Source: a virus
Reading direction: 5' to 3' (one strand)
IMG/VR virus record: IMGVR_UViG_3300009706_001692
Span: 1 to 29,458 of that record
DNA: 29,458 bases
The notes under the pieces were generated by a model, which searched no databases, was not told the origin of the DNA, and saw nothing but the letters and a program-made list of their open reading frames with translations. This document shows, piece by piece, positions 9,346 to 29,458 of this stretch (positions are counted from its first letter, which is position 1; every line of letters starts with the position of its first letter). The translations under genes were made by a program, and so were the position numbers.

Positions 9346-10376
9346 GTCACGAATTGGAAATCAATGAAGCCGGCAACGCCCGCATGGCTTATTCCGATCG
9401 TGAGATTCCATGGCATCGGCTAGGAACTCCCATGCGTGGACTCCAGACTGCCGAAGCAATGCTTACTGCCGCACAAGCCGACTTCGATGTGGTGCTTGCC
9501 GACGTGGCCGCAATTGACGCAAACGGAAACGTTCTCTACAACAATCTGGGTTTGGAGTCAGAGCCGGTCAAGATTGAAAACAGCCGGGCCACAATCCGAG
9601 TGAATCCAGATGGGTCGTTCGATGGGCTTGCCACGGTAGGCACCCGGTTCGTTGTCGAACAGAACAAGGATTGCCTGATGCGAGCCTTGGACATCGTGGG
9701 GGCTTCCAAAGGTGACGCAGTTGTCGATACCGTAGGGGTTCTGCGCGGCGGCCGAGAGTTCTTCGCTTGTCTTGATTTGGGCTCGCTGGTTATCGACCCC
9801 AATGGGATCAATGACAAGATCGATCGCTATCTGCTCGTTCAGAACGGGCATGACGGACGTACCCCGATCACGTTCGCCAATACTCCCATTCGGGCGGTCT
9901 GCAAGAACACGGTCGTCTTCGGAGTGCGGAAGGCCAAGAGCATTTTCCGAGCCAAACACACGCGTAATGCCGACAAAGCCGTGGAGGCTGCACGGGACGT
10001 ACTCAACATCTCGGTGGAATGGGCTCGAGGCTTTCAGGAGATGGCTGAACAGTTGTTGCGAATTCCCGTTCCGGCTGGCTCCCGACAATTCGACTCCGTG
10101 TTTAATACAGTATTCCCGGATTCGAGTTCTTTCACGGATCGGCAACGCGATCATCGCGATGATGTGCAGATGACCATGCGTGGCCTGTACACCTCTCCTA
10201 GGAACGCTGCCGGCTTTGGATACAACGGGTGGTCCACCTATAACGCTTTCGCCGAATACTTTGATCACACGCGCGAGGGTGACGCTGACGCCAAGGCAGC
10301 ATCGTCGATGAATTACACGTCGTGGGTTTCAAAGAACAAACAAGCCGTTCAGCAGGCTCTCTTGTCTTTGGCATAA
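9342..10376 (+). CDS. DUF932 phage/plasmid-like protein
   Basis: 344 aa with AGGAG before the ATG, overlapping the upstream stop (ATGA). It shows the family hallmarks: IPWHRLGTPM near the N-terminus, LATVGTRFVVEQNKDCLMRALDIVG at about 95-120, GGREFFACLDLG at 136-147, YLLVQNGHDGRTPITFANTPIRAVCKNTVVFG at 163-195, and a C-terminal Y-N-x-W-x-x-x-N-A-x-x-E-Y-F-DH segment. DUF932 (TIGR03299-type) proteins are common on phages and plasmids; their biochemical role is not established, though anti-defence or DNA-binding roles have been suggested. The length is usual for the family. Confidence 0.85.
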   Translation: MSHELEINEAGNARMAYSDREIPWHRLGTPMRGLQTAEAMLTAAQADFDVVLADVAAIDANGNVLYNNLGLESEPVKIENSRATIRVNPDGSFDGLATVGTRFVVEQNKDCLMRALDIVGASKGDAVVDTVGVLRGGREFFACLDLGSLVIDPNGINDKIDRYLLVQNGHDGRTPITFANTPIRAVCKNTVVFGVRKAKSIFRAKHTRNADKAVEAARDVLNISVEWARGFQEMAEQLLRIPVPAGSRQFDSVFNTVFPDSSSFTDRQRDHRDDVQMTMRGLYTSPRNAAGFGYNGWSTYNAFAEYFDHTREGDADAKAASSMNYTSWVSKNKQAVQQALLSLA

Positions 10377-11159: not shown

Positions 11160-11183
11160 CACCTTCCGTATTTCTTTGTGGTC

Positions 11184-11189
11184 TACAAT
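11184..11189 (+). promoter_or_regulatory. Possible -10 box for the ribonucleotide reductase gene
   Basis: TACAAT matches the -10 consensus at five of six positions. The nearest TTGACA (11156-11161) is 22 bases away, longer than usual, so the pairing is doubtful. It would give a leader of about 50 bases before the start at 11248. Confidence 0.35.
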
Positions 11190-11247
11190 CGGTAGGGGTT
11201 CTTTATCCCCGTCCCGCTCGCCCTACCGAATCGAAAATTGCAGGTCA

Positions 11248-13170
11248 ATGCCCTACATTACGGACGATTTCATTGAGTCATATAGAACACAAACACCACC
11301 TTGGGGTTTCGGGGGATTAGGGGAGATAGTATTTCTTAGAACGTACAGTCGCAAGACTGAGGATGACCGTTCAGAGTCGTGGCCAGAGACTCTTCAGCGG
11401 GTAATCAATGGTGCCATTGAAATCGGTGTGCCGTACACCCAGGCCGATGTCGAACTTCTGTTCGATCACATGTTTCATTTGCGTTGTTCGTTCGCCGGCC
11501 GTGGGCTCTGGCAGTTGGGCACACCCCTCGTTCAAAACATGGGTGGAGCGAGTCTCAACAACTGTTACTTCGTCAACATCGAGACGGTGGAAGATTTCGA
11601 GTTTGTGTTCGACATGCTCATGCTGGGCGGAGGCGTTGGTTTTTCCGTGGAGCGAGCCAAGATTCACGAACTCCCCAAGGTGAAGCCGGGCGTGACCATC
11701 ACCCACGAGCGAACCAACGATGCCGACATCATCGTGCCCGACTCGCGTCAGGGTTGGAGTCGCCTGCTGCACTCGACTCTCAAGTCGTTCTTTGATACAG
11801 GTAAGTCGTTCTCTTATTCCACGATTCTGGTTCGGGAATCGGGAGCCGCACTCAAGACATTCGGCGGTACGGCTTCAGGGCCAGGTGCTCTGATCGATGG
11901 AATTGCCGACATTTGCACAGTGATGCAAGGGCGAGAGGGTAAAAAGTTACGGTCTGTTGATGTTCTAGATGTATGCAACATCATTGGACGGGTGGTGGTG
12001 TCTGGCTCGGCGCGACGTTCCGCCGAGATTGCCATCGGTGACCCCGATGACGTTCTCTTCCTCCGAGCCAAGAACTGGGCAACGGGAACAGTCCCCGCCT
12101 GGCGATCGAACAGCAATAACAGCATTTATGCCGATTCCTACGACGAGATCCTGCCGGAGTTGTGGAAGGGGTATAACGGGAATGGGGAACCGTATGGATT
12201 GGTTAATCGTAAGTTGGCTCGAAAGGTGGGAAGGCTCGGAGAGAATAAGACAGATAACAGCATCGAGGGGTTCAACCCCTGCGCCGAGATAGCGCTCGGT
12301 GACGGGGAGTCGTGCAATCTGGCGACGATTTTTCTACCGAACATCGAGTCGCTGAAGCAGATGCGGGAAATTTCCCGCTTGCTTTATCTGGCGCAGAAAC
12401 AGGTCACACGGCTTGAGTACCCCTACGAGAAGACGACCAAGATCGTTGCCAAGAATGCGAGGCTGGGTCAGTCTGTTACCGGAGTGCTGCAGGCATCCGA
12501 AAAGCAATTGGGCTGGATGTCGGAAATCTATGATTACCTGTCTGGGCTGGACGAGCAGTATTCTGCGAAACACAACCTGCCCAAGTCGGTTCGTCTGACC
12601 ACGGTTCAACCCTCAGGGACGCTGTCTCTGCTGCCGGGGGTTACACCGGGCGTACACCCGGCATACGCCCGCTACTACATCCGGCGGGTTAGATTCCGTT
12701 CAACGGATCCGTTGGTGGAGGCGTGTCGCCAGCGTGGCTACAAGGTTCAATGGGATGTTGGTTTAGATGGACAGAAGGATCGCACCAGTCAGGTCGTCGA
12801 GTTCCCTTGCGAGTCTCCAAAAGATGCCATTTTAGCGAGCGACATGTCGGCGATAGATCAACTGGAGTGGATCAAGCGCTTGCAAACCGAGTGGGCGGAT
12901 AACGCTGTGTCGGTGACGGTGTACTACCGGCTGGGTGAACTGCCAGAGATCCAGGAGTGGCTAACGAAGAACTACAAGAATTCGATTAAGAGTGTGTCAT
13001 TCTTGTTACACACCGATCACAATTTCCCTCTACCTCCATACGAAGAGATAACAGAAGCAGAATATGAGAAATCAGTCGCGAGTGTCAATCTTTCGGTTCC
13101 ACTGGTGGCTGTGGGCTCCGACTCTGTTGTTTTTGATGACTGCGACACTGGTGCGTGCCCTGTTCGTTAG
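11248..13170 (+). CDS. nrdJ: Class II (adenosylcobalamin) ribonucleotide reductase, monomeric type
   Basis: 640 aa from MPYITDDFIES at 11248; the frame is open to 11176 but lacks a good earlier start. It makes deoxynucleotides for phage DNA. Visible hallmarks are N-N-C106 (first redox cysteine), N343-P-C345-A-E347 (radical-site cysteine with its Asn and Glu partners), C356 exactly 11 residues after C345 as in the Lactobacillus enzyme (C408/C419), VQPSGTLSLLPGVTPGVHP, and the C-terminal C632-x4-C637 pair in CDTGACPVR that shuttles electrons. The single-chain plan with this tail marks the RTPR-like monomeric class II enzyme, which reduces nucleoside triphosphates using vitamin B12 coenzyme. It is shorter than the roughly 740-aa bacterial form. 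Its 3' end meets the next gene with a 2-base gap. Confidence 0.93.
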   Translation: MPYITDDFIESYRTQTPPWGFGGLGEIVFLRTYSRKTEDDRSESWPETLQRVINGAIEIGVPYTQADVELLFDHMFHLRCSFAGRGLWQLGTPLVQNMGGASLNNCYFVNIETVEDFEFVFDMLMLGGGVGFSVERAKIHELPKVKPGVTITHERTNDADIIVPDSRQGWSRLLHSTLKSFFDTGKSFSYSTILVRESGAALKTFGGTASGPGALIDGIADICTVMQGREGKKLRSVDVLDVCNIIGRVVVSGSARRSAEIAIGDPDDVLFLRAKNWATGTVPAWRSNSNNSIYADSYDEILPELWKGYNGNGEPYGLVNRKLARKVGRLGENKTDNSIEGFNPCAEIALGDGESCNLATIFLPNIESLKQMREISRLLYLAQKQVTRLEYPYEKTTKIVAKNARLGQSVTGVLQASEKQLGWMSEIYDYLSGLDEQYSAKHNLPKSVRLTTVQPSGTLSLLPGVTPGVHPAYARYYIRRVRFRSTDPLVEACRQRGYKVQWDVGLDGQKDRTSQVVEFPCESPKDAILASDMSAIDQLEWIKRLQTEWADNAVSVTVYYRLGELPEIQEWLTKNYKNSIKSVSFLLHTDHNFPLPPYEEITEAEYEKSVASVNLSVPLVAVGSDSVVFDDCDTGACPVR

Positions 13171-14896: not shown

Positions 14897-16237
14897 TCAA
14901 CTGGGAGCCGCATCGAAGGTGATCTTGGTGAAGGCCTCTGGGCGCTTCACTGCCAGGGCGAGACGCTGCTCGGCCAGGATCACGATTGCGTTGCGCACGA
15001 AGAAGTCTGAATGCTGCTCCGAAACGCGGATGTTGGCTTGCTCGCGGTCGTACAACTGCGCGCCAGTACCGAAAGCGCCCACCAAAGCGGTGCCCTCAGC
15101 AATAGCCGGAGTCTCAACAACCGGAATTCGCCACACGCGAGGCTCGCCACCGAGTGCCACGGAGACGGCGACCAGGTACTGGCCGTTTCCGTCCTTCGTC
15201 AACTCGATGTCTTCCCAGTCGTTCGGATGCATCACGACGCCCGTGGGCTCGTAGTATGCAAGGAACGACAGGGTTGCCGCGCGCCGAATGGCGTCTGCCT
15301 TGGTGTCCTTGACCGGCAGTGTTGCACCGGCTGACCATGAGTAGGTCTGGATACCTGTGGTCTGGAGAACGCCAGTCAGGTTTTCACCTGAGCCAGAACC
15401 GTTAAGGATCTGAGCGTCTTCCTGCAGCCTCAGGCCGTACATCAACTCGTTGTCGATGATCGACCGCAACTGCGGCTCGTCGGCCAGGACGTTGCGGTGA
15501 GCAGCCTCCCAGTGAGCGAGGGTCCGCACGGGAGCCTGCTCGCCAACGAACGTGAATGCCGACTGTGGCTTGGCCGTGAAGACCTCAGGCGAACCTGAGC
15601 GCTCCCCGACTGCTGCAGCAGCGTTGGTGAACCCGGTCATGCGGAAGTACTCCACGATGGCCGCGTTGGTGGTCCGTGTCGGGAAAAGTTCCCGAACTCG
15701 CTTCGTCCGCTGTGGCGGAATAACGATCGGATCACGCTGAATGCTGCCGAACGCGCCAGGGGTGCCGGTCGGGAGACCCGAGTAGACATCCTTGACGTTG
15801 TATTCGAAGGCACTCTTCGTGGTCAGTGAACCCTCAAACTGCCAAGGGTTCGGCATGTTGGCGCCGTTGCGACCGTTCTGGAGGGACTTGAACTCCTCCG
15901 AGTCGCAGAAGGCCTGGCCGAGGGTCTTGTACTGAGGCTGGGCACCTGCAAAAGCAGCGCCTGCAGCAGCAGCACCAGAAACCGATTCGACTTCGACCTC
16001 GGGGGAAGAGGGGGTTGCGCCCCACTCGTTGATTGCATCAAGGTCCTGAATGCCCTTGATGAGACCCTGCAACTCCTTGATGTCGACCATGTTCTTGTCG
16101 AAAGCGCCTTTGCGCTCTTGATCGACAATGAGAACATCGTCTTCCACCTTGAAGGAGTCAGCAATGGTTTGGTTGTCCGCCATTTTGGTGCGAAGTGCGG
16201 TCTGCAGTTCGCCCATGCGGGAAGTGTCTTGTGACAT
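14897..16237 (-). CDS. HK97-fold major capsid protein
   Basis: 446 aa with GAGG about eight bases before the ATG. Residues 1-70 are helical and charged, as in the scaffolding delta domain of HK97-type capsid precursors, and residues 71-100 are an Ala/Gly-rich link where cleavage would be expected. The remaining part is the mature shell domain: VIPPQRTKRVRELFPTRTTNAAIVEYFRMTGF, HWEAAHRNVLADEPQLRSIIDNELMYGLRLQEDAQILNGSGSGENLTGVLQTTG, ADAIRRAATLSFLAYYEPTGVVMHPNDWEDIEL, VVETPAIAEGTALVGAFGTGAQLYDREQANIRVSEQHSDFFVRNAIVILAEQRLALAVKRPEAFTKI. It forms the icosahedral shell. It does not contain the GLRSxR motif of the upstream giant proteins. A strong terminator follows it. Confidence 0.95.
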   Translation of the reverse strand: MSQDTSRMGELQTALRTKMADNQTIADSFKVEDDVLIVDQERKGAFDKNMVDIKELQGLIKGIQDLDAINEWGATPSSPEVEVESVSGAAAAGAAFAGAQPQYKTLGQAFCDSEEFKSLQNGRNGANMPNPWQFEGSLTTKSAFEYNVKDVYSGLPTGTPGAFGSIQRDPIVIPPQRTKRVRELFPTRTTNAAIVEYFRMTGFTNAAAAVGERSGSPEVFTAKPQSAFTFVGEQAPVRTLAHWEAAHRNVLADEPQLRSIIDNELMYGLRLQEDAQILNGSGSGENLTGVLQTTGIQTYSWSAGATLPVKDTKADAIRRAATLSFLAYYEPTGVVMHPNDWEDIELTKDGNGQYLVAVSVALGGEPRVWRIPVVETPAIAEGTALVGAFGTGAQLYDREQANIRVSEQHSDFFVRNAIVILAEQRLALAVKRPEAFTKITFDAAPS

Positions 16238-16515: not shown

Positions 16516-16660
16516 ACGATGGTAGTCCCAACGCTTCATAAGAGTCGTCTGTTCGATTTCTTATCCAGTCTCGATTGCGGGGGTCTGCATCCAGATCAGG
16601 AAACTGCTTATCCTGGGAAGCGTTCGAGGACTTGGATGGTTTGTTTTCCGTGGCGGACAA
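16508..16660 (-). CDS. 50-aa protein with TTG start overlapping the giant gene
   Basis: I place the start at TTG 16660, which has a perfect AAGGAG six bases upstream, both lying inside the end of the giant gene (53-base overlap). A longer frame up to 16717 lacks such a site. The product ends DADPRNRDWIRNRTDDSYEALGLPSYD and opens with a Ser/Lys-rich stretch. No domain recognised. The overlap ties its translation to the giant protein. Confidence 0.6.
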   Translation of the reverse strand: MSATENKPSKSSNASQDKQFPDLDADPRNRDWIRNRTDDSYEALGLPSYD

Positions 16661-19600
16661 TGCACTCTCCTTCCGACAAACAGCCGAAGCCGTTGGTTGA
16701 TAGACCGACGATATCATCGATGGAAACTTCTGATTTCATAACAAATCCGGTCAGATCTGGTTCGTTTGCTCCCATCCCCATGTTGGCAAAGCCTCTGGCC
16801 GTCTCTTCTGTAATCGACCATGCGGTCAATGCCGAGCCTGGCCTGTCTGCCCCAAGAGTCTGAGGTGGCTGACCTATGAGTGCATCTAGGTGGTCTGCTT
16901 CAGATCCGTCAAAGATAACTCCCCGATACAGGGTTAGTTTCTCTATTCCCAGTGCTTTCAGCCGTTTCACGGTGGCTCGTTGTTCTGCGGCAAGGACGGC
17001 TTGATATGCCTCTCCGTAGTAATGTTCTAAAGCGAGGGTTTGAACAATGGCCCGCTCGCCCGAATTCCGTCCCGTCGCGCGTTTCCGGATCATATTGCGA
17101 CGGTGGTCCATGTTTCTGTGAGACTGCGTTTCATCCATGGGTCCGAGGTTTTTAACAACTTTGGCTGCTCGTTTCTTAAGTTCAGCGTAGTTTATGTTCC
17201 TCGGTACGAAGTCCTGGGCTTCTTCATCCCATTCCACCCTGGGGACGGCATGGAATATTTCCCTCTGGATTTTCTCGTCGTCCCAGCCCAATGTTCTGGC
17301 CATGGACAATTGGGTTAGCAAGGCCCCTGAGTCGTGCCCGCCTGATACGCGGGTCCAATGATCATGTATGCGGTTCACCAAACCCTCAACGCGATCAGGA
17401 CCAACAGCCTTTTCGATAATGTCTTTTTCCTCAGGAGTTATCTCATCCACGAGTGTCTTAACGCCCTGGCGCTTTACCTCTGCCCTCCATCCCTGTGGTA
17501 CGCCGACGATTATCGAGCCCCCCTCTTCGAGGTTGATGTTGCTGCCGTATACCTCGACGCCGTCCGCCCGTGCCGCTGACGGACCCGTGTTTTGCCCGAA
17601 TGATATCGTTTTGGCTTCCTTGAGTTTTTTCATGTCTGCATCGTCGAGGGGGTCCAGTCCGGCCACTTTCAGCGACTCGCTGATTACGGCAATAGTTGTT
17701 TCTCTCTCGGCCGCCGACATTGGCTGCCTACTACTTTTAAGACCTCCCCCGGCTGCTTCCCTTGTGGCCTTGGCCCGTCGTCGAACAGTGCTGCCCATCT
17801 CGCCACCGCTCATATTTCCGAAACCGGCCAGGCTGTGAGTTGTTGCAACCTCTACGAACTCAACCATGTCCGGATCCAAGAACATGTAGTCGGTACGACT
17901 CATCTCTCGGATGCCTACCTCATGCGACTTGACTACGTCATAGCCAAGATCTTTGATAGCAGCATTCATCTGGTTGCGAATAAGATCTAGCCGATCTGAG
18001 GGTAAGAACCCATCCAACTCCCCACGTCCATATGCCACATCGCCTTCCTGCATGTACTTTTGTATTTGCAGCAAGGTCTCTGGGCCAGTTACTTCGCCGC
18101 GCTTACGGTCAATGAAATCAAGAGTGGCTTCCAGTTCTTCCTCGAGATATTTGATCTTCCAGTTATCTCTTCTCTCTGCTTGCGAGGATTTTTTGATTTC
18201 ACGCAAGAGAGACTCGATGGCAGGGATGGCAACCCCGTCAAGAACATCGTCTGGGAGCGGATCCATAACGTCCAATATCTGAGGCGGGTTTTCGCCCTTC
18301 CATCTTGTTGTATGCAAATGTCCGGGATCGACGGTGTCGTATCCGCCCTCGGCATTGCGTTGCCAAGGATTAGCCCATCCTTTGATTGCCGGGAACGCAC
18401 TGGCAGTCGTGTAAATACCCGGTCCCCACTGGCCCGAGTCGTTACGGCTGACTTCATAATCAACGTCTCCGGTCAGATCAACAGGGCCGCCGTGGTACAA
18501 GGTGATGGGATCACCGTCTTTGATATGTCCATCGAATATGCCGCGAATGGGGCTTGTTTCCTGGTTATGGACCCCCACGCCAGAATCAAGACCAGATTCT
18601 GTTAGCCGCCTGTACCCCTCTGTGGTCTGCCTGATTCGTAGGGTCTCAGCGAGATCTTCCATGAACTCGGGGTCTCGTTCCTCTACGAGTTCTCGTATGG
18701 CTTCCAGGTAGTCGGGCTTGATTGGAGCATCACGCCCTCCCATCATCCCGCGAGGTGAAGACCGCATCTCGTAAGCAAGTTGATCCAGAATCGTGTCCGA
18801 CTGCTCGGCCCCCGCTTCGGCAAATATCTCGCGCAACTGTCCTATCGCTTCGTTGTGGAGTCGCTCATCTTCCGCATCTGCATCATCAGTTCTCTTGGAC
18901 TCGAACCCCCCATCAATCCCCATGTCTTCCAAATGCTGGTCGACCTGCTCCCGTGTGAGGAACGTGGCGTCGCCATCGTAAAAGTCGCCGCCGAACAGGC
19001 TCACCTGCGTTTCCTCGTACTCGGCAGGAGAGAAGCGTCCGGCGATATCCACCTCTTCCATTTCGCCCGCCCTGTAGTACACGTCCCGGGCCATGTCGGG
19101 TTTCAACGCCTCAAGTCGTCCGCGATCCATGTCGTCGAACTCCAAAATATCGTCGCCGTCTCTAACACTGGCGTAATCGCGAACCATCGTCACATCACGC
19201 ACTGGCGCTGCAGCGTTGGCTTCGTTTGCCCTATCGATTGCCTCCAGGAAGGAATCGATTGTTGCCTGCTTCTGCTTGGGCGGCAGATCCATGCCCTCGA
19301 CCAACACAAGGATTTGCTCTTTGGCGTGGTCCCGATCGGCTGAACTCATCAACGGGGGAGGAGGCTTGACAGCGTCGTACTCAACCCAGGCGTGCCCGGA
19401 TCGCTCCCCCACCTTTGGGAATACCGGTGAGCCGACAACAACCCGGACATTGGTTACAGGATCACCATCTGCGTCCACACCCTTTTCTGCAAGTTCTACA
19501 GCAGCGCGATACGAGGCAGAATAACAATCACCATCGCCGGATCGGAGTTCGTAGCCGTACTGTTCCTCGAACGCCCGTTCACCATCGGTCTGAATTCCTT

Positions 19601-21572
19601 TGGCTTTCAGGTGGCGGCGATAAGCGTCTTGGAGGTTTTCACCTTCGTCACCTCGCCGACTCGCGAGGCTGCCTGGGGCTCGAATGGCTTTCTCTCGTCG
19701 TGCTTCATCCCACTTCCTGAAGCCCCCAGGATTCTCGCCTTCTTCCCTGAGCCTTTCGGCATACGTTTTGCCCCTGCGGGGATCATCTCTCTGGGAATAC
19801 CTAGTTACCGCCGGTCGGTCAGCGACCTTTCCCCGGAACAAAACCGGGTCCCCATCAGAATCTTTAGGATCGAAGATTTCATTGAACTTATCTTCATCGT
19901 ATATGACAAGGTGCCCATCTTTAAAAGTAGCCACCAGAGGGGGTGCTTCGTCTATGGACCCACCGTTGTCATATATGTGGGCTTCATCTATACGACCCTC
20001 TTCGACATACTTCACGACTTGATCAAGAACATTCATAGCATCTTCGGGTTCGGCCCCATACCTGCGCCTCTGGTTGGTGCGACGATCAGCGATTCTGCGG
20101 GAACGTTCATCGTCAGGAACGTGAAGATAGTGCATTACTGAAGCCGTGTCGCTTCTCCGACCGTTCCTGTGATCCCGTCCCGGGAAAAGCACACTGTTCA
20201 TCAGGAGTCCGTCCTTGCCGGTTCCCTGAACAACAACGTCCATGCCCTCCTCTAGGGCTTCTTGCAGAGTCCTTCCCGACTGGTCTCTGGAGAACTGGTG
20301 CGACTCCCCAGAGCCTTCGCCGAAGTTCCATCGTTTATGAAATCTCTTGTAATCGTCCGGATTGGTATGAGCGGCTTCACTCGCGTCCGGAACTAGAAGA
20401 TGTCCCAGGCTGGTTCTTGCAGTTTTCCCTGATCCCGGTGCGCCATAAACCCAATGAACTCGCTGCACAGGTTTGCCGCGATGCTCTTGATCGACTGCAT
20501 CGAGGGTCGCTTTACGGTATTTGGCAGCCTTCTCCGTATCCGACAGATCGCGGTCTTCTTCGGGAGTGAGTTTGAAGCCGCGTACCGATTTGAACCCACC
20601 AGTCGCCTCGGCGAACTCGTAGTATTCGGCCATCTCGTCAATCTCCGTGTCAGTTACCGGGGAATTGAGACGCGAGTCCCTCATGTCCAAGTTGAACTCA
20701 CGTCGATCTCTTTCCAGATCGCGTCGTCGCTCACTCCGATCCGCCGATCGTTCTGCACGCCGTCGACCGGTTCTGGTCGTTCGGGGGCCAAATCGCCAAC
20801 CCCCGACAGGACCATCACGTCGGGACCGCAGACCTGGGACTCGTGGAGTAGCCGGGCGCTCCCAAACAGTTCCCTCCTGAACCAGCATGTCCATATCTGC
20901 ATCCCGCGCATCCGCATTGAAGGCAGTTGTTGCGGCAACACGAGCACGGTTGAGTTTCCGACCGAGAGCCTTCCCCTCGTACAGTTCTTCCATCAACGAC
21001 TTTTTCCGGCGCAATTGTCGGCGAACCTCACGAGAAACTGCGCGCTCTAGCGTGCGCCGGGCTTGGCGACGTTGATAGTTGCGGCCAAACGCTGTTGACC
21101 CAGTGCGCTTTGCATAATCAGTCATGTTGCTGCACGGCATCCAAACGGTGTTCCCAGTACGGGACACACGCCTAGAAACACCGATGCATCCCAACTGGCG
21201 GGATCGCCGACGAGCCAACCGGGGAGTCGTAAACACATCCGGGTCTTCCTCATCCGGAGCCCAGGGTGCGGACTTAACTGAACCGCCGACAAGACCGCCA
21301 CCAGCGATCGTGTCGATGGAAGTCACACCCCGTTCAGCGAGAGGTTCCCAGTCTCGTTTGTTTTTTCCCTTGGAATTACGAGATCGGCGACGCTGCTCAA
21401 CTACCCGAACGGTGTTTTTCTTGTCTTTTTTGACAAGTTCTTCGTATTCCTCCATGGTTGTGCACGGCATCCACTTCCCGTCGGGGTGCTTGTGCGCGCC
21501 AGTACAGCCCATTTCTTGGGCGAGGCGTAGCGCGGCTGCCTTGGACGCCACCAGATCGGTATCTGTCGCCAT
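16608..21572 (-). CDS. Giant polyvalent virion-type protein: Cys-pair repeats, Zeta-like kinase, Cys/His peptidase-like, two ART domains
   Basis: 1,654 aa from ATG 21572, five bases after the previous stop (the frame is open to 21677). Domains: a duplicated GC-x-G...WMPC module (residues 15-46, 121-155); Arg-rich helices (165-215); an LVQEGTV module (218-240); a Zeta-toxin/UNAG-kinase-like P-loop domain (about 365-565) with GAPGSGKT at 377-384, NPDDY and VVVQGT; a Cys/His peptidase-like domain (about 670-735) with GDC683YSASYRAA and GH727AWVEYD; an ADP-ribosyltransferase-like domain (about 1020-1240) with LYHGG, GPGIYTT and LGYDVV; and a second ART (1545-1654) with YR1550G, WS1586IT and E1634-x-E1636. 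Several G-[LFMY]-x-S-x-R motifs separate these. Residues 1284-1510 are unassigned. This matches phage polyvalent proteins thought to be packaged and injected like T4 Alt. Domain calls are by motif; kinase and peptidase activity are inferred. Confidence 0.85.
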   Translation of the reverse strand: MATDTDLVASKAAALRLAQEMGCTGAHKHPDGKWMPCTTMEEYEELVKKDKKNTVRVVEQRRRSRNSKGKNKRDWEPLAERGVTSIDTIAGGGLVGGSVKSAPWAPDEEDPDVFTTPRLARRRSRQLGCIGVSRRVSRTGNTVWMPCSNMTDYAKRTGSTAFGRNYQRRQARRTLERAVSREVRRQLRRKKSLMEELYEGKALGRKLNRARVAATTAFNADARDADMDMLVQEGTVWERPATPRVPGLRSRRDGPVGGWRFGPRTTRTGRRRAERSADRSERRRDLERDRREFNLDMRDSRLNSPVTDTEIDEMAEYYEFAEATGGFKSVRGFKLTPEEDRDLSDTEKAAKYRKATLDAVDQEHRGKPVQRVHWVYGAPGSGKTARTSLGHLLVPDASEAAHTNPDDYKRFHKRWNFGEGSGESHQFSRDQSGRTLQEALEEGMDVVVQGTGKDGLLMNSVLFPGRDHRNGRRSDTASVMHYLHVPDDERSRRIADRRTNQRRRYGAEPEDAMNVLDQVVKYVEEGRIDEAHIYDNGGSIDEAPPLVATFKDGHLVIYDEDKFNEIFDPKDSDGDPVLFRGKVADRPAVTRYSQRDDPRRGKTYAERLREEGENPGGFRKWDEARREKAIRAPGSLASRRGDEGENLQDAYRRHLKAKGIQTDGERAFEEQYGYELRSGDGDCYSASYRAAVELAEKGVDADGDPVTNVRVVVGSPVFPKVGERSGHAWVEYDAVKPPPPLMSSADRDHAKEQILVLVEGMDLPPKQKQATIDSFLEAIDRANEANAAAPVRDVTMVRDYASVRDGDDILEFDDMDRGRLEALKPDMARDVYYRAGEMEEVDIAGRFSPAEYEETQVSLFGGDFYDGDATFLTREQVDQHLEDMGIDGGFESKRTDDADAEDERLHNEAIGQLREIFAEAGAEQSDTILDQLAYEMRSSPRGMMGGRDAPIKPDYLEAIRELVEERDPEFMEDLAETLRIRQTTEGYRRLTESGLDSGVGVHNQETSPIRGIFDGHIKDGDPITLYHGGPVDLTGDVDYEVSRNDSGQWGPGIYTTASAFPAIKGWANPWQRNAEGGYDTVDPGHLHTTRWKGENPPQILDVMDPLPDDVLDGVAIPAIESLLREIKKSSQAERRDNWKIKYLEEELEATLDFIDRKRGEVTGPETLLQIQKYMQEGDVAYGRGELDGFLPSDRLDLIRNQMNAAIKDLGYDVVKSHEVGIREMSRTDYMFLDPDMVEFVEVATTHSLAGFGNMSGGEMGSTVRRRAKATREAAGGGLKSSRQPMSAAERETTIAVISESLKVAGLDPLDDADMKKLKEAKTISFGQNTGPSAARADGVEVYGSNINLEEGGSIIVGVPQGWRAEVKRQGVKTLVDEITPEEKDIIEKAVGPDRVEGLVNRIHDHWTRVSGGHDSGALLTQLSMARTLGWDDEKIQREIFHAVPRVEWDEEAQDFVPRNINYAELKKRAAKVVKNLGPMDETQSHRNMDHRRNMIRKRATGRNSGERAIVQTLALEHYYGEAYQAVLAAEQRATVKRLKALGIEKLTLYRGVIFDGSEADHLDALIGQPPQTLGADRPGSALTAWSITEETARGFANMGMGANEPDLTGFVMKSEVSIDDIVGLSTNGFGCLSEGECIVRHGKQTIQVLERFPG
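20421..20444 (-). other. Walker A (P-loop) of the Zeta-like kinase domain
   Basis: The codons spell GAPGSGKT inside the giant gene, preceded by the strand VHWVY, as in Zeta-toxin and related kinases. The downstream NPDDY could supply the acidic catalytic residue. Confidence 0.85.
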
Positions 21573-21577
21573 GGCGA

Positions 21578-21886
21578 CTAGCCGCTTTGGATTTTGGCAG
21601 CAGCCTGTGTAGCGGCCTCTGAATCGTTCGGGTACCGCTTCTGATACATGCGGGCCTCTTCGATCTGCTCGGCCCACTTCTGCATCACTTCAGCGAATGG
21701 ATCGTCTGCGTCTTCGTCAATGCCGAGAGTGAAGTCCTCAACGAAGTTGTTTTGTTCTTTCGGATTAATGGAGAAGGGCGGGTAGTCGACCAGAAGTGAC
21801 AGTTCCTGATGGGTTTCGGCGAGTTCGCCCATACGAGCGGCGTGCGCTTCTCTCTCTTTGGGGGAACTACCTAGTTTGTATCCCAT
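21578..21886 (-). CDS. Small unknown protein between the two giant genes
   Basis: 102 aa. The ATG at 21886 shares TAATG with the stop of the upstream giant gene, and its own stop lies five bases before the next giant gene, so the three are probably co-translated in sequence. The product (MGYKLGSSPKEREAHAARMGELAETHQELSLLVDYPPFSIN...DDPFAEVMQKWAEQIEEARMYQKRYP) is helical with an acidic centre. No domain recognised. It lacks the GLRSxR motif. A chaperone- or adaptor-like role for the giant proteins is possible but unsupported. Confidence 0.75.
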   Translation of the reverse strand: MGYKLGSSPKEREAHAARMGELAETHQELSLLVDYPPFSINPKEQNNFVEDFTLGIDEDADDPFAEVMQKWAEQIEEARMYQKRYPNDSEAATQAAAKIQSG

Positions 21887-24800
21887 TAGTGGAAACTCCC
21901 ATACGAGGGGATTAGTTCTCTGAGGCGAGCCTGATCCAGTTTCCCCTCTTTGGCCAACTTCTCGATTATCTCAGTGACTTCTTCACCGGTAACCGGATGG
22001 TCCAGCACCATCACCGAGGCTCGGTTGGAAAGGCTGACCACGCCGCCATGCCGCTGAACCGCATCGTATCCGTAGAACGGCAGAGTATCGAAAAGGAAAT
22101 GGTCTTCCCTGGAATCTAACTTTTGGACAGATGCTGGCAGTTTCCCTAGGAAGTCCCAAGCCGCTTCCAACTGTGTCGGATCAAGGTCTCCGGAGTCATG
22201 CAAATCTAGAACCTGATCGACTATCGATCCGAACTCCGTGTCTCTCCAACCAGCCGTCATGGGCTTCATTGAGCCCTTCGAACCGCCAATACCGAAACCG
22301 GAACCAGTGGGCAAAATCTTTGATGGATTGTTGGGGTCTTGAGGTTCCCGGTGGTCGGCTCGCCCTTTGACCTGCAGGCGTCCACCTGTAGCCTTTTCTG
22401 CTGCGTCAAGGGCTGCCCGAACTGCGGCAGAAAAGTTGTCCCCATCGTGCTTGATTGAAGTTGGGGCTTCGGTGTCGACAAGCCCTGCCGCACTAAGAAC
22501 CCCGACGATCGATTCGGCTTCGTCGTTGATCTCGGCAAGTTTACCCCATCCAACGAGTCTGGTTTCAGGCGTAATAAACGTCAGGGGTCCTGATCCGTAG
22601 CCGCCGAACATGAATCCCTTCGACACAGGATCTGATAACGAACCATCGGGTTGACGTACACGGACGGGCGGCTCTGCATTATTTTCACCGGCACCATGCA
22701 CTTCGCCCCCCTGGCCTCCAACGAAGCGCGAAACGAGACGCGTCCACTGCTCCCAGTAGACATCGCCTTCTCTCGAATTGCCGTCCTTGTCCCGACCCAG
22801 GCCACGCAACATGGGCTTGAATCCCTCACGAAGTTTGAACCTTCCCGGGTAGTCCGGATCTTCTTCGAATACCACGTCTTGGATTTCTTCGGGACCAACC
22901 ATTTCCGGAAGACCACTATGTCCGGCGTGGAACCAGGAAGCGTCAATAATGTCATCGCGCGTTCTCGGTGAATCTTTGCCTTTCTGCCGTTTCTTCGCTA
23001 CGTCCTTCCCAGTCGCTGTTCCGCGTCTGACTCTGGTGAGGCGTGCCAATCGATCGATAAAGGTGCTGTCAACGACCAGAGCGCCTTCGACTTTCTCCCA
23101 TTGCTCCAAGTCGTCACCGGTACCGGCGAAGTACGTTGTGGCAGCGGCACCACCGAGCGGCTTGTCAACGTCACGGGCTCCACTGGTCCGGTTTTCGCTG
23201 ATTCTGCCAAGTCGTTGATCGCTAGTGAGCCTGCCGAGTTTCTTCGCCTTCTTCTTGGCCCTCTTGAGTTCCATTTGTTCGAGCGGGCTCAGTTTCTTCT
23301 TCCAAGGCTGAACGCTCTTCGTCGGTCCAGCGCCACCCGTACCGGCACCTCCGGCTTGGGCTGCACGCCGCTGGGCAGCCAACTGTTGCCTGCGTATATA
23401 GGCAGCAGGCACGCCGGGAGACAGAATGGCTGTTCCGATTCGCTCCCGTATCGGTCCCTTATCCTCACCCTTGGGCATCTTCTGCCTAAATTTCCTACTC
23501 CGGCGTTTGACGTGTTTCTTGTACTCATCCATGCTGTCGTGGCCGGCGATGGCACCCCAAACCGTTGACTTTTTGCCACCAGTTTTTGTAACACCCTTGA
23601 TCTTTTCGGGAAGGGTTTGGTCCTTGGATCGCGCGATATCCAGAAACCGCTTGCGGGCTTCGGGGTGGAGATGTTCTAATGCCTCATAGTTTCCACTTCT
23701 GCGCATCTGTTGAAGAACCTGCAGAGAATCCAACAGTTTCCTCTTGGTAGTGATGCGCTGACCAACAGTACCGGTGGTTTCAAGCAACTGGACCTGGAAG
23801 GCCTGTTCGAAGGTTCGCACACCCGTGTTCTCGCCCCTACCTATCTGTTCTAATCTCCACTCGGTTACCGGCGGGGTTGGATCATCCTTGCCAATATGCC
23901 CGGATCTAATCATCTCGGCCCTAACGGCATCCCCGAACATATCTGCGTAAGTCTGATGTTGGGTTGCATTTCCGCCAGCGAGACCACTGTCGAAACTATT
24001 AGCCCTGGGAGAGATGTCTTGTCGGCCAGACATCAGTTCTATTTCGAGTTGGTCGGCTGCGTCCTCAAAGGCTTTAGCATGCGCCGGGGACATCACCCCA
24101 GCGTCATCAGTGAGCGAATCCCAAATCTCTCCGTCGGCTGTGCCGGCTTGCCGTGGACTGTCCTCGCGGTAGAGGGTTGGAAGAGTCATCATTGTTTTGT
24201 CGGCTTCGTCACCACGTCTGGAGGCCAGACCGAGTGGACGAGCAGAACGTTGCGTTGTCGCAACACGCATACGAGCACGAGACGGTTCACGTTGTGACTG
24301 CAACCCACCGCCACCGATGGAATGCCGTTCCGCGTCGGTTATTTCTCCACCCTGACTCCAGAAGCGTTGACTGACCGCTCTCCGCGCAGCGCTTCTTTCA
24401 GGATCCGACCACGGTGCCCCATCACGCGATGACCGCAGGCCACGCTCACGGGCCTTTTCGATTGCGGCCAATTGCTGTTGGGCAAGTTCGTTGATCTTCT
24501 TCTTGTTGGGCTTCTTTTTGCCGCGTTCGTCACCAATCTGTTCGGAAAGTCCAGCGATTGTGCTTTCGGCTTCTTCGCGGGCTTCCCTCCAGTCCGCATC
24601 CCAATCATCCGTTGTTCGACTAGAACGGTAGCCAGAGGCGACACGGCCCTTGCCCATTGCCTCACCGAGTTGTTCGCGAAGTTCAGCCTCTGACTCCTGA
24701 AGGGGTCGGACTTGTTTCCGGAGACTATGGACAGCCTTGGTGTCGTCTTTCCCCTGGGCCTCATCGATCCGTTCGAAGAGGGGTTTGATTTTGCCATCGC

Positions 24801-27800
24801 GGAGTGCGTCGATTTGCTTATTGAGAGAATCGACTTTGGCTGTGTCCACTGCCGGCGCTTCAGGCACTTCTGTTGCGTCGTCCCCTCCCTCTGTCCGCCG
24901 CTGATCGCGTCCCTCTAGTCTTTCCGTGAGGGTTTCCCCTGCTCGTACCGAACGGAATCCACCAGTGCCGCCTGGATCGCGCTCGGCGTCTTCGGCGTAT
25001 TGGAGCATTTCTGGTGATGTGCCCAGGTAGGCGACTTCACGGAACCGGACCTCTTCCGGATCCATGTTGAATCGGTCAGCCACTTCGTCCAGAGACATTC
25101 CACGCATGCGAGACTCAGCGATACGCCGATTCAAGTTTGGCTGAGTATTGAACTTCTCTTGGCCCGAACGGCCATGGGCGTGAGTGATTTCACGCATCCG
25201 AACCTCAGCCCGGTCCATGTCGTACTTCTCAGCGACTTCCTCGATGGTCATACGGAAGCCCACACGATCCTCAAAGATGCGCCGGTTTAGATCCGGCTGG
25301 GCCTCATACCTTTCCTGGCCGGACAGCAAACTCATGTGTTCCATCTCGCGACGCCGAACCTCGACACGATCCATGTCGTACTTGTCAGCAACCGCGTCGA
25401 ATGCCATCGGCGTCATGCGGTCATTGAAGATGGCTTCATTGAGTTTTTGATCCCGCACGAACGGGTCGTCGTGATGCAGGAGGTCGGGATCGGTGTCTCT
25501 CTCCGGATCAAAGTCCCGATCAATGAATGAGCGGAACCCTGCCTCGCGAGCCCATTCGATGTCATTCAGGGCTTGCCGGCCGGCTTCTTCGAGTTCATTA
25601 CCTCTCGTGAACTCTTCTTGACGCATCTCATCCGTCATCCGGTTGAGTGACTCTTCGATCCGCTGATCCATCATGTCGCGGATTTCTTCTTGCGTTTCTT
25701 TCCAGTTGTCAGGATCTTGTGCGTACCGGGACTCTGGTCCGTCGTCTGGGACGTGTTTGTCTAGCCAGCCTTGGACGCCTTCGGGGTGACGTTTGAGCCA
25801 CTCGGGGTCGACTTGATCGATGGTGGTGCCGTCCGATCGCATCGCTCTAACCATGGGGGGCGGATCGTTGCGTGGGTCGTATGGGTCGTTTGAGCCGCGT
25901 GAGGAGTAGAGGCCGTCTCGACGAAATCCCATGTTCCCTTCGCCAAGAGTCTGAGGGCCACCGGGGTCATTCTCGCGACCCGGGAAAGGCTGACGCCAAT
26001 ACTCTTGCGTCCCTCCCGGATTCTCTTCAGATGGGGCGCCAGGGTGTGCCCTCCACGTTTTGAGTTCTTCTTCGATTTCTTTCCAGTCATCTGGATCGCT
26101 GCGCTGAGAGCGCAAGCCACCTCCACCGGGGCGACGAGGATCGAGATAATCCGTGAACATCCCCTGGCCGGTCGCCAGGTTCCGTGAGAGCGTGTCGAAG
26201 TCGAGGAGGTGATATTTCACCGCACCCTGAGCAGCGAGGTGTTCGCCGGTCTCCGTGTTTATGGTTTGCAACAGTTCGCGAGTTTCAGAGTCCAGATCAG
26301 TCGCCTTGGCGATCCCTTCCCTGTTCCTATCGTTCGACTCTAAGTAAACTTTTAGTGCGCTCCGCACCTGGTCTTGCTTTTCCCGTTCGTCGAGTGCATG
26401 GCGTTTCCCGCCCTTGTCGCCTTGAGCGAAGGAACCGAGTCGCTCCTTTTGGGTGTAATCAGAGAGACTCCACATTCCAACCTTGGCTGTGCCACCCTCG
26501 GCACCGTCCATGTCTCGGGTTTTGTCTGTACGCGGCGCTCCTTTACGGAGACTTTCGGGTGGAACGGCTCCGAGCCAGCCATTGCCGATGGTGGCGACAT
26601 TTTTTAGATCTGCGAGAATTATTTTTCTGGTGATTTCCAGTGGGCCGGCCGGCTTGTCCGGATCTGTGGGATCCTCACGGTGAACCGTTTTCCCGTGGCC
26701 GAGAATGGAGTCGACCCAGTCTTCTGTCCTCAGGTGAGGGAAGTCAGCGTTGGTGCCCTGAGCCGAATCACCCGGAGCGACCGCCAGCCGATACCGAATG
26801 TTCTCGACATCAACAGGCATCTTGGCGGCCTTGGCTGCCTCCCGAAATTGTTCCCAATGTTCGCCGTTCATCAGGTCGAGTTGCTCTAGACGGAGTTGGT
26901 CTTTAGCCTTGAATTCTGCAAAGGTGCCAGCATTCTTTCTTCCACTCTTGCTAAGGCCGTCGTACCTTTTCCGGGAAATTCTCTCTAGGGTATCTTTGAG
27001 TACTTCTTCGGGATAGGCATCGGCATTCGTTTTACTGAGACCTGTTTCGATGGCTTCTATTCTGAGGTTGGCCGTTACTCGATCCGGGGGGAGACTCACT
27101 CCCGAGTGCTCCTCCCTTCCACCGGCGGACAATCCGAAAAAGGCAAATCCACTTCCTACCAGTGCGTCAAAGAATTCCCCACCGGGACCGTATTTCTCAC
27201 CCGGTGTAGAACTACCCGATTTCATTGTCGTCGACGGCATGTTCCCTTGAGGGTCGGAAAACTTGCCGCCCGTGCTTCCGCTTTCGGCGTGCCTGCCGGC
27301 CTCGGTGTTGCGGGTGTCGATGTCGGCGATGATGTCGTGTCCCAATCGCCGGGATTGGAAACCTGGACTCTGACGGGATTCATCGTAAGCAGCGATGCGC
27401 CCATTGCCCGTGGGGTAGAAGCCCGTAACAAGAGTGTCGAGCCATTTCCTCTGATCTTCGTCCGTCCCATTCAGGGCGGTGGAGAAGAGATTCTGATCGT
27501 CGCCGCTATCGGGGTCAACCCATTCCTCGTAGGGAATGTCATCGTCGATGGCCCTATCGAGACCGTCGTAATGTGCGGCTGCATCTTCGGGTGTAGCGAA
27601 TGTGTCCAGGTCGTACAGGTCTTCGGCTCGGTTTCCGAAGGCCGAGTCCAGGTCGCGGTATTGGCCGACGACCATCCAGCCCTCTTCGCCTTCCAAGACC
27701 TCGCTTGCGCGAATGATCTCTATATTCATGTTGCCGGTGCTTATTTTGGCAACGGCGTCGCTGCCGCCGTGGAACTCTGATTCGTGCCAATCCCTGGGGT

Positions 27801-29458
27801 CGTCGGGATCGCGGATGTCCCAATCCGGATTGATTCGCGGGTTGAGCAGGCTGTCATAAACGCTGTCACCCCGTTGGGAGCGCAGACCATCATCCATTTG
27901 CCGGTCTTTCCACACCTCGTATGGAGAAGGACCGGACGGACCTGTGATCATGTACTTGGACGGATCATCCCAGAAATCTTCCTCTACCGAAGCAAGGAAC
28001 TTGGAGCGAGTGTCGCCGGCTGTTCCACGATCGGGGAGCAACTCGTCGAGTGTTTTGCCGAAATCGGCACCGTCGTCGTCGGTGATGTCCCAATTGTTTT
28101 CTGTGATCAGTTCGTCCAGCAATCTGTTTGATCGATTACTGATTTCGTCCGAGTCGTACAACTTGCCGATGGGCGTCTTGCCGACACGTTTCGTTAGGGC
28201 ATCGAGGCCGCGCTCTTCTTCTGGCGTGGGACCTTCGGCCCAGGGGTCATTCCCCCGCTGGGAGCGCATGCCGCCAGCGGCACGGTCCTCACCACGATCC
28301 TCGGCACGTCCTTCCGCCCTGAGGATTTCGATCCGCTCCTCGCGAGCAGCAACCTCGTAGTCGTCTTCGTCTTCTCGACGGTCTAGTTCGATTTCGTGGT
28401 CATTGATTTCTTGCTGCCATCGCGCTTTCTTGGCATCATCGGTTTCACTATCTCGGCGTCGGTAGTAATCGTCGAGGCCGGTCTCCATGTCGTCGGTCGA
28501 GGTATGGTCGAACCTGTCTTCTAGCGACTGCTCTCGCTGCCGTCGAACTTCTTGGTACCGGTTTCCAGCAGGATGAAAGCCATAAGACGATCTATGTTTT
28601 TCTGCGACTAAAGATCTGAGTTGTCCAAAGGTGGACCCAGGCCCTGTACCAAGTACCCGAGCATCATTCCCAAGTCGTCGGAGTTCTTCAACTGCCTCTT
28701 CCCTGGTCATGCCACTCCACCGCTCGGGCATCGACCCATCAGTGGACATGAGTGCGTCGCGCATCCTTCTGTACTCCGCACTGTCCTCTCGGCGTTCACG
28801 ATCACCCTCTGGTGTCCCATAAGGTGCGTTCCGGCGGACGCTTCGATCAAATTCGCGGAAGGAGCGCAGGCCGCCGCTAGCGTCGTCGTCCATTTGCCGG
28901 TCTCTTGCTACGTCATATGGATCAGGAGGCCCGGGACCACGACGCAACCCGTCCATCTCCATGAGTGCATCAGGATCGCCATTAAAGGCAGCCTCAGAGA
29001 GATCCCTAATGGCTTTCTGCCATTCTTCAGGGAGATCTTTGATCGGTTTATTGAGTTGTGCATCCAGTTCATCTTCGTCGAGGGTGGATGTGAAATCTTG
29101 CAGTTTGCTCCAACCATCCTGTGGAAGTTCATCAGACAACTCGTCCAATGTGTAGTCCTGCATTGCACTACGGAAACGGTCCCACTGGCGTTCGTACTCT
29201 TTTTCGTACTCTGGATCATCGTCCGGCTGGTAGTAGGCATCGGATCGGCTTGAACTGAGACCCTGCCGCATTCTCCTAGCCGAACGGTCGCGATCAGCGG
29301 GGGTACGACGGGCTGTGCTGGGAGTGCCAGGAAGGTTTGGTTTACCCGGTAGTGCGGGACGCTCGTAGACGGTGCCTTCCTGAACGAGCATGTCGAGATC
29401 AGCGTCTCGTGCATCGGCATCGAACCCAGCAGCGCTACGTCCAGCCCCTTGACCAATA
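21886..29458 (-). CDS. Giant modular virion-type protein, 5' end beyond the window
   Basis: More than 2,500 codons; the frame runs through the right edge, so the true start is outside. Residues are counted from the Met at 29391. Just before and after it lies the LVQEGTV module shared with the other giant. The rest is charged and modular: repeated PY-[DE]-V-x-x-DRQMDD ends (158-169, 490-501), repeated DPD-[DN]-WKE-x-x-EE segments (1099-1109, 1227-1236), three tandem 51-52-residue HTH-like repeats (1317-1470), a coiled-coil region (1515-1580), a basic Lys/Arg-rich region (1960-2060), and a C-terminal domain (about 2075-2501) ending GYDAVQRHGGVVSLSNRASVMVLDH, which faintly resembles the end of an ART-like fold. 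Twelve G-[LFMY]-x-S-x-R motifs divide it. It lies where portal/MuF/protease genes normally precede the capsid gene. No catalytic motif is certain. Confidence 0.85.
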   Translation of the reverse strand, partial: IGQGAGRSAAGFDADARDADLDMLVQEGTVYERPALPGKPNLPGTPSTARRTPADRDRSARRMRQGLSSSRSDAYYQPDDDPEYEKEYERQWDRFRSAMQDYTLDELSDELPQDGWSKLQDFTSTLDEDELDAQLNKPIKDLPEEWQKAIRDLSEAAFNGDPDALMEMDGLRRGPGPPDPYDVARDRQMDDDASGGLRSFREFDRSVRRNAPYGTPEGDRERREDSAEYRRMRDALMSTDGSMPERWSGMTREEAVEELRRLGNDARVLGTGPGSTFGQLRSLVAEKHRSSYGFHPAGNRYQEVRRQREQSLEDRFDHTSTDDMETGLDDYYRRRDSETDDAKKARWQQEINDHEIELDRREDEDDYEVAAREERIEILRAEGRAEDRGEDRAAGGMRSQRGNDPWAEGPTPEEERGLDALTKRVGKTPIGKLYDSDEISNRSNRLLDELITENNWDITDDDGADFGKTLDELLPDRGTAGDTRSKFLASVEEDFWDDPSKYMITGPSGPSPYEVWKDRQMDDGLRSQRGDSVYDSLLNPRINPDWDIRDPDDPRDWHESEFHGGSDAVAKISTGNMNIEIIRASEVLEGEEGWMVVGQYRDLDSAFGNRAEDLYDLDTFATPEDAAAHYDGLDRAIDDDIPYEEWVDPDSGDDQNLFSTALNGTDEDQRKWLDTLVTGFYPTGNGRIAAYDESRQSPGFQSRRLGHDIIADIDTRNTEAGRHAESGSTGGKFSDPQGNMPSTTMKSGSSTPGEKYGPGGEFFDALVGSGFAFFGLSAGGREEHSGVSLPPDRVTANLRIEAIETGLSKTNADAYPEEVLKDTLERISRKRYDGLSKSGRKNAGTFAEFKAKDQLRLEQLDLMNGEHWEQFREAAKAAKMPVDVENIRYRLAVAPGDSAQGTNADFPHLRTEDWVDSILGHGKTVHREDPTDPDKPAGPLEITRKIILADLKNVATIGNGWLGAVPPESLRKGAPRTDKTRDMDGAEGGTAKVGMWSLSDYTQKERLGSFAQGDKGGKRHALDEREKQDQVRSALKVYLESNDRNREGIAKATDLDSETRELLQTINTETGEHLAAQGAVKYHLLDFDTLSRNLATGQGMFTDYLDPRRPGGGGLRSQRSDPDDWKEIEEELKTWRAHPGAPSEENPGGTQEYWRQPFPGRENDPGGPQTLGEGNMGFRRDGLYSSRGSNDPYDPRNDPPPMVRAMRSDGTTIDQVDPEWLKRHPEGVQGWLDKHVPDDGPESRYAQDPDNWKETQEEIRDMMDQRIEESLNRMTDEMRQEEFTRGNELEEAGRQALNDIEWAREAGFRSFIDRDFDPERDTDPDLLHHDDPFVRDQKLNEAIFNDRMTPMAFDAVADKYDMDRVEVRRREMEHMSLLSGQERYEAQPDLNRRIFEDRVGFRMTIEEVAEKYDMDRAEVRMREITHAHGRSGQEKFNTQPNLNRRIAESRMRGMSLDEVADRFNMDPEEVRFREVAYLGTSPEMLQYAEDAERDPGGTGGFRSVRAGETLTERLEGRDQRRTEGGDDATEVPEAPAVDTAKVDSLNKQIDALRDGKIKPLFERIDEAQGKDDTKAVHSLRKQVRPLQESEAELREQLGEAMGKGRVASGYRSSRTTDDWDADWREAREEAESTIAGLSEQIGDERGKKKPNKKKINELAQQQLAAIEKARERGLRSSRDGAPWSDPERSAARRAVSQRFWSQGGEITDAERHSIGGGGLQSQREPSRARMRVATTQRSARPLGLASRRGDEADKTMMTLPTLYREDSPRQAGTADGEIWDSLTDDAGVMSPAHAKAFEDAADQLEIELMSGRQDISPRANSFDSGLAGGNATQHQTYADMFGDAVRAEMIRSGHIGKDDPTPPVTEWRLEQIGRGENTGVRTFEQAFQVQLLETTGTVGQRITTKRKLLDSLQVLQQMRRSGNYEALEHLHPEARKRFLDIARSKDQTLPEKIKGVTKTGGKKSTVWGAIAGHDSMDEYKKHVKRRSRKFRQKMPKGEDKGPIRERIGTAILSPGVPAAYIRRQQLAAQRRAAQAGGAGTGGAGPTKSVQPWKKKLSPLEQMELKRAKKKAKKLGRLTSDQRLGRISENRTSGARDVDKPLGGAAATTYFAGTGDDLEQWEKVEGALVVDSTFIDRLARLTRVRRGTATGKDVAKKRQKGKDSPRTRDDIIDASWFHAGHSGLPEMVGPEEIQDVVFEEDPDYPGRFKLREGFKPMLRGLGRDKDGNSREGDVYWEQWTRLVSRFVGGQGGEVHGAGENNAEPPVRVRQPDGSLSDPVSKGFMFGGYGSGPLTFITPETRLVGWGKLAEINDEAESIVGVLSAAGLVDTEAPTSIKHDGDNFSAAVRAALDAAEKATGGRLQVKGRADHREPQDPNNPSKILPTGSGFGIGGSKGSMKPMTAGWRDTEFGSIVDQVLDLHDSGDLDPTQLEAAWDFLGKLPASVQKLDSREDHFLFDTLPFYGYDAVQRHGGVVSLSNRASVMVLDHPVTGEEVTEIIEKLAKEGKLDQARLRELIPSYGSFH
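24988..25443 (-). repeat. Three tandem 51-52-residue HTH-like repeats in the giant gene
   Basis: Each unit runs LN-x-x-I-x-x-x-R ... M-x-x-x-x-VA-[DE]-[KR]-[YF]-[DN]-MD-x-x-EVR-x-RE and the first two continue with SGQE...QP. Units begin at residues 1317, 1368 and 1420. 'EVAEKYDMDRAEVRMRE' reads like a helix-turn-helix with two helices and a turn, so nucleic acid binding is possible. Confidence 0.8.

Follow-up and report, generated by a model that had tools for sequence, protein, structure and literature searches.

The question of how polyvalent proteins, a known class of long chains, are packed, separated and delivered is raised by one gene in IMGVR_UViG_3300009706_001692, an IMG/VR virus fragment of 29458 bases (the window, covering the whole fragment) from an uncultured aquatic virus of bacteria. 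An initial annotation had placed a kinase, a peptidase-like domain and two ADP-ribosyltransferase (ART)-like domains in a single protein of this virus. Here we describe the conserved core to which such enzymes are attached and the short peptide tags at which most of the modules start, and we consider what may recognize these tags.

The gene and its neighbours

The single protein is encoded by a 1654-aa gene on the minus strand (16608-21572; the strand was unstated in the annotation), with ATG at 21572 and stop at 16608; a plus-strand reading of the interval was ruled out by its many stops. The minus-strand open frame as a whole begins with GTG at 21677 and runs down to 16608 (1689 aa, P0001). 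We consider ATG 21572 the likelier start because a 102-aa ORF on the same strand (21578-21886) ends at 21578, and because relatives begin at the equivalent point, just before the first DUF3721 repeat. This short ORF separates the gene from a second giant gene of 2523 aa (21886-29457, minus strand), which carries an acidic tag and 12 linker tags and runs off the record. The next gene downstream (14897-16237, minus strand) encodes an HK97-type major capsid protein (Phage_capsid, 8.8e-46), ~45-56% identical to capsid proteins of Gordonia and Brevibacterium phages. On the opposite strand, a ribonucleotide reductase (11176-13170, plus strand; PHROG 367, 2e-140) and a PHROG 1221 protein (9342-10376, plus strand; 3e-54) were also identified.

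All four motif sets quoted in the annotation are present, each inside a block conserved in L003, a relative that is 79-84% identical to the 1654-aa protein over the other motif blocks and 44% identical in the C-terminal ART. With this conservation, and that of the kinase, Cys/His and C-terminal ART residues in further relatives described below, the motifs exceed what chance would give. In P0001 numbering they are GAPGSGKT (residues ~411-418), GDCYSA...GHAWVE (~716-765), LYHGG...GPGIYTT (~1059-1090) and LYRG...WS...EGE (~1584-1671, including E1636 in the annotation's numbering). Cultured phage records contained no close relatives of the full protein or of its core, a PDB sequence search gave no credible match and PADLOC returned no hits.

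A conserved core with optional cargo

A scan of IMG/VR with the capsid protein returned 405 relatives, 80 of which were fetched, and the final count at the fetched loci was 59 ORFs bearing a conserved N-terminal core of ~215 aa. In the window this core spans 20928-21572 (minus strand), and the shortest family members, of 206-253 aa, consist of nothing else. Pfam PF12518 (DUF3721) matches it in two stretches (4.1e-15 per protein), namely repeat 1 (GCTGAHKHPDGKWMPC, 21453-21548, minus strand) and a DUF3721-like repeat 2 (GCIGVSRRVSRTGNTVWMPC, 21120-21218, approximate bounds, minus strand) that is strongly conserved in the family. In larger family members the core is followed by a basic stretch, then by an acidic tag, DxDxDGxVQEGTxxERP (in this virus DADMDMLVQEGTVWERP), and finally by cargo. 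In the 1654-aa protein the acidic tag (NADARDADMDMLVQEGTVWERP, 20853-20918, minus strand) sits where the core meets the cargo; other giants that bear cargo have a single copy close to their N-terminus, for example after an S78 protease, and core-only relatives lack it.

Of the cargo seen behind the core, the kinase was the most frequent. The L003 chain reaches 3001 aa, and a core-type giant of another genome (G005) has DnaJ, NUDIX and Zeta_toxin cargo. Wherever the available stretch covered the position, the relatives' capsid gene was usually preceded upstream by a core-bearing gene. The position is therefore a family rule and the enzymes are the additions, so that a location directly upstream of the capsid gene, which had been thought unusual, is what these phages ordinarily show. 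The DUF3721 core is near-universal in the phage group, whereas the kinase, the peptidase and the ARTs are C-terminal cargo that may be present or absent. Neither the optional nature of this cargo nor the division into tag-separated modules common to one genome's giants figured in the initial annotation.

Related capsid genes also occur in genome bins (L197-L203) assigned to Phycisphaerae, Acidimicrobiia, Actinomycetota, Gammaproteobacteria and Verrucomicrobiales. These bins are contradictory as to host and are probably mis-binned phage contigs.

Enzyme modules of the 1654-aa protein

The kinase domain (19848-20525, minus strand) has a Zeta/PezT fold, as predicted by structural modelling. An AlphaFold model of residues 345-945 gave pLDDT values of about 70-95 across most of the domain, and the best Foldseek matches of the kinase model were Zeta toxin (1gvn_B, 1.2e-6) and PezT (2p5t_F, 2.5e-6). 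Pfam Zeta_toxin scored just under its cut-off on the window protein (1.6e-4, 21.6 bits versus 22.3), and the kinase domains of ten relatives scored above it. A 26-sequence alignment further showed an invariant P-loop G..G.GK, a PD..K motif and lid arginines R184 and R188. The Zeta-toxin-like kinase first read from the P-loop is thus borne out by the model (E-values around 1e-6) and by the family search, and it may act as a UDP-sugar (UNAG) kinase.

The Cys/His domain (18963-19610, minus strand) may be papain/transglutaminase-like. Its Cys and His are kept in four relatives (L003, L016, L051 and L081), Transglut_core matches two of these, L081 and L051, under the cut-off (0.015-0.028), and the model shows a helix followed by two strands at pLDDT of about 53-79. 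Foldseek gave no clearly non-kinase fold for this region among the matches listed, and profile scans for further relatives of this domain and of the first ART found only L003's contig. Of the proposed papain/transglutaminase-like peptidase, the conserved Cys/His pair therefore stands, and the fold is left with the sub-cut-off matches in relatives and a medium-confidence model.

The C-terminal domain (16638-17078, minus strand) is supported as an R-S-ExE ART by its residues and by a relative. Six diverse sequences all keep R, S (STS-like) and ExE; a profile built without L178 finds L178 at 1.3e-9, and the L178 domain matches Pfam DRAT, an ADP-ribosyltransferase, above the cut-off (1.5e-6). The AlphaFold model here is of medium to low confidence, and Foldseek found no match for it. 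The invariant residues and the DRAT link through L178 nevertheless agree with the R...S...ExE ART of the initial annotation. A helical region precedes the domain (17088-17690, minus strand; aligned in L003 and L015, with helices in the AlphaFold model).

We tentatively assign the middle module (17808-18530, minus strand) as a putative H-Y-D-type ART. It carries H (LYHGG), Y (GPGIYTT) and D (RTDYMF), conserved in L003 only, and in these two sequences the residues follow the order of Tox-ART-HYD2 (ART-PolyVal), in which H lies on strand 1, Y on strand 2 and D on strand 5 (PMC5512222). The segment had no Pfam match, Foldseek was empty, and a profile comparison with ART-PolyVal and the GMA6 ART gave no support. 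The assignment is tentative because the AlphaFold model is poor here and the profile comparison was empty; the pattern claimed for the first ART-like segment is present, and the fold claimed for it does not emerge from the model. Separately, L003 (residues ~885-1030 of the 3005-aa frame), L044 and L096 share a recurrent short ART-like cargo domain, VYRAxP...GDWVxPSxxYAxxHG, that has no Pfam match.

Linker tags mark the start of modules

Most modules start at a short tag, of the GLxSxR type in this virus. In the 1654-aa protein these are GLRSRR (20817-20834), GFKSVR (20580-20597), GFESKR (18891-18908), GLKSSR (17727-17744) and a fifth, variant copy, GSLASRR (19653-19673), all on the minus strand. 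The pattern G-[LFMYI]-x-S-x-R was observed 4 times in this protein versus 0.2-0.55 expected, 12 times in the second giant versus 0.3-0.9 and 11 times in an S78 protease giant versus 0.42, where the expectations vary with the pattern and the number of shuffles (one pattern allowed S/T, R/K and V, the other neither T nor V). Codons at the tags vary freely, which argues for selection on the peptide and rules out an explanation at the DNA level.

Tag types follow lineages: GLxSxR, GMRS, STRS, R[LF]SSG and ISGRM were distinguished. R[LFM]SSG occurs 12 and 7 times in separate giants of G003 and 16 and 7 times in those of G004, and [IV][ST]GxM occurs 4, 1, 3 and 9 times in giants of G005 and 4, 1, 2 and 11 times in those of G006. 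Outside these genomes the two types are near zero, except in G008, which shares [IV][ST]GxM, and within each of them the other types are likewise near zero. In any one genome, hardly any of the modules that lie between tags are homologous to one another (0-3 matching pairs, most of them in the first module), so the tags did not spread as passengers of domain duplications. Tags are sparse in some giants (4 in 2496 aa in the near-identical virus L004/G002, and 1 in 2480 aa).

Comparison of related giants identified nine large indels. The downstream block starts within 5 aa of a tag in 14 of 18 cases (3.9% at random) and the upstream block ends near one in only 2 of 18, counts in which the two proteins of each pair are not independent. 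Thus, the tag belongs to the start of a module. Such borders could also fit an ordinary polyvalent protein in which the motifs are just flexible joints that make it easier to shuffle modules and that no factor recognizes. Recombination borders do coincide with tags, and the four tags covered by AlphaFold models lie in low-confidence, presumably disordered stretches (pLDDT about 38-60). However, the varying codons speak against a DNA-level recombination site, and neutral joints would not stay alike across the non-homologous genes of one genome while differing between genomes. We regard mere joints as improbable.

Several further observations concern tags and modules elsewhere. The second giant has a 781-aa C-terminal stretch without a tag, and its modules lack Pfam assignments except for weak sub-threshold matches. 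Two giants of another genome (G009, L194-L196; 2672 and 3381 aa) have almost none of the known tag types and carry either another tag or none. In cultured Gordonia and Brevibacterium phages (GMA6 Orf13/14, DalanDe gp27 and Cantare gp11/12; L007, L006 and L005), large proteins at the same place in the operon have an RxVRTxEGxxxYGxPIGxxI-like signature near their start. GMA6 Orf14 has it twice, and it may be a counterpart of the linker tag. In an unrelated phage (L096:3997-11787 and L097:4276-11856), a string of effector modules comes after a MuF-like head protein; most of them have a repeated KFNPYHDELGRFTTAD-type tag in front, and they include three copies of the R-S-E ART described here. This reads as a second, independent tag-per-module design.

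The head operon and its proteases

The near-identical virus L004/G002 extends upstream beyond the window, and the S78 protease gene described here lies on that contig, outside the window record. Its operon encodes a portal-like protein and a 578-aa scaffold-like protein, names that reflect only sequence and position. It further encodes a giant of 2887 aa whose N-terminal part is a Peptidase_S78 prohead protease (1.2e-8), a 2496-aa giant matching ART-PolyVal just under the Pfam cut-off (2.2e-6), proteins of 1096 and 664 aa, and the window's second giant. ParB_N and KTSC matches in these giants are likewise just under the Pfam cut-off. A protease scan matched at least 600 stretches, at least 593 of them from relatives. 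Minimal S78-type proteases (~460 aa) lack the acidic tag, and others carry it at 430-640, together with cargo. The longest chains include protease giants of 3967 aa (G003) and 4203 aa (G004), whose cargo includes ArdC-N with MPTase-PolyVal and a UvrD helicase; a sister giant carries RNase T.

Metallopeptidase domains within the giants offer one possible means of processing. HEYTH and HEFSH motifs occur in two giants of L004/G002, MPTase-PolyVal is present in the G003 and G004 giants, and autoproteolysis has been proposed for MPTase-PolyVal proteins (PMC5512222), so that the tags might be cut in the head or after injection by the giants' own HExxH domains. Yet the GLxSxR-lineage giants and the one ISGRM-lineage giant scanned are tagged and have no MPTase-PolyVal match, and we give this route little credence.

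The occurrence of one tag type across unrelated proteins of a genome, differing between genomes, suggests that a factor reads the tag in trans. It points to a single recognizing factor, a proposition that is directly testable, and the S78 prohead protease of the same operon, itself fused to tag and cargo in the near-identical virus, is the obvious candidate. We read the 1654-aa gene as a conserved head-operon protein extended by cargo: after the core and its acidic tag of DxDxDG-like type, an optional string of effectors (Zeta-like kinase, Cys/His domain and two ARTs, one of them putative) has been added. The GLxSxR linker tag marks most of the module starts, and it marks modules in the other giants of the virus too, including the S78 prohead protease fusion. 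The sequences and models show this architecture, the tags with their genome specificity, and the identity of the kinase and of the R-S-E ART; the following steps are our proposal. These giants are most likely polyproteins: their head-protein part would bring them into the prohead, the S78 protease would cut them at the tags during maturation, and the released effectors would be injected with the DNA, disabling or reprogramming the host. We put the probability of this reading at a little under 0.6.

Its parts differ in strength. A hydrophobic-x-small core is common to the tags and to a variable site in the N-arm of the capsid protein (S-L-T-T in this virus), a weak link between them. The N-arm site hardly changes across lineages (SLTG in G003/G004, whose tags are RFSSG, and SLTS/SLTN in G005/G006, whose tags are ISGRM), and strict covariation with tag type was not seen. 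Further points against the reading are the giants with few or almost no tags, the upstream block ends that do not coincide with tags, and the position of the S78 gene on the near-identical contig. Given so weak a shared core and a capsid site that fails to follow the tag type, we rate cleavage at the tags by the S78 protease as only somewhat better than an even bet; packaging and injection, which the head-operon context suggests, we rate somewhat higher. Whether the aquatic phage group at large builds head-packaged effector polyproteins, with cargo chains of up to ~4200 aa fused to head genes that include the prohead protease, and with that protease cutting them into many separate injected effectors at tags that have diverged between lineages and are uniform within a genome, we regard as evenly poised.

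The tags could alternatively be encapsidation or docking signals, bound by a head component that coevolves within each lineage, the giant being packaged and injected uncut. As modules move, the tag does remain attached to the beginning of the module downstream of it, the unrelated MuF phage repeats its longer tag before effector modules, and transfer of N4 virion RNA polymerase and of RP4 TraC1 takes place without cleavage (PMC5512222). However, a single packaging signal per chain would be enough, a separate acidic tag is already present once per chain, and as many as 16 tags per chain would be excessive. We consider docking unlikely, if far from negligible, and favour cleavage by the prohead protease.

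Beyond the mechanism, the tags provide a computational means of dividing giant phage proteins into effector modules. The phages carrying tagged giants are abundant, widespread, uncultured and aquatic.

Comparison with known systems

The 1654-aa protein is supported as a polyvalent-type protein, a known kind, with packaging and injection suggested by genomic context. It joins unrelated activities, a Zeta-fold kinase and an R-S-E ART, in one chain, and its sister giants carry further domains. The initial reading as a polyvalent protein fits well with these unrelated enzyme domains in one chain within a head operon, as in the polyvalent proteins of Iyer et al. 2017 (PMC5512222), which are also large chains of unrelated enzyme domains tied to head genes, include ARTs, Zeta-like kinases (there MuF-fused) and metallopeptidases, and have been likened to polyproteins. 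In contrast, assemblin-like peptidases are always C-terminal there, and the S78 protease is N-terminal here. Alt-type R-S-E ARTs are stated there to be absent from genuine polyvalent proteins and are present here, which agrees with the earlier view that two ART types in one chain are unusual. Its text makes no use of the word 'linker', and the parts consulted describe no genome-specific tags. In the open-access sources read, where absence is no proof of novelty, we found neither serial cargo on a DUF3721 core protein, nor genome-specific linker tags common to giants, nor a polyvalent chain that combines an R-S-E ART with a putative H-Y-D ART.

T4 Alt is an ART that is packaged in the head and injected (PMC5512222, PMC9503650). 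The resemblance to Alt and to gp21-type prohead maturation lies in an R-S-E ART that here too would be packaged in the head and injected. The prohead protease gp245 of SPN3US cuts head proteins at a short P3-x-P1 motif, A-x-E (PMC10052503), much as we suggest for the tags. Unlike the arrangement proposed here, its cuts mostly remove propeptides from N-termini (14 sites in nine proteins), and the release of numerous effectors out of a single chain is not reported for it.

Alike in position are DalanDe gp27 of a Gordonia phage (1633 aa, annotated as 'capsid maturation protease') and GMA6 Orf13 (ART), which lie upstream of capsid proteins ~45-53% identical to that of the window and likewise place an S78-type protease in a very large chain, although they lack GLxSxR tags and have another N-terminal signature. 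Effector fusions to head proteins, including a processing serine peptidase, are already known (PMC9503650). MuF polymorphic toxins and MuF-effector fusions (PMC5576092, PMC9503650) similarly join a head protein to C-terminal effector domains, with Alt/VIP2 ARTs on MuF, whereas the carriers here are a DUF3721 core protein and a prohead protease, each followed by several effectors in series.
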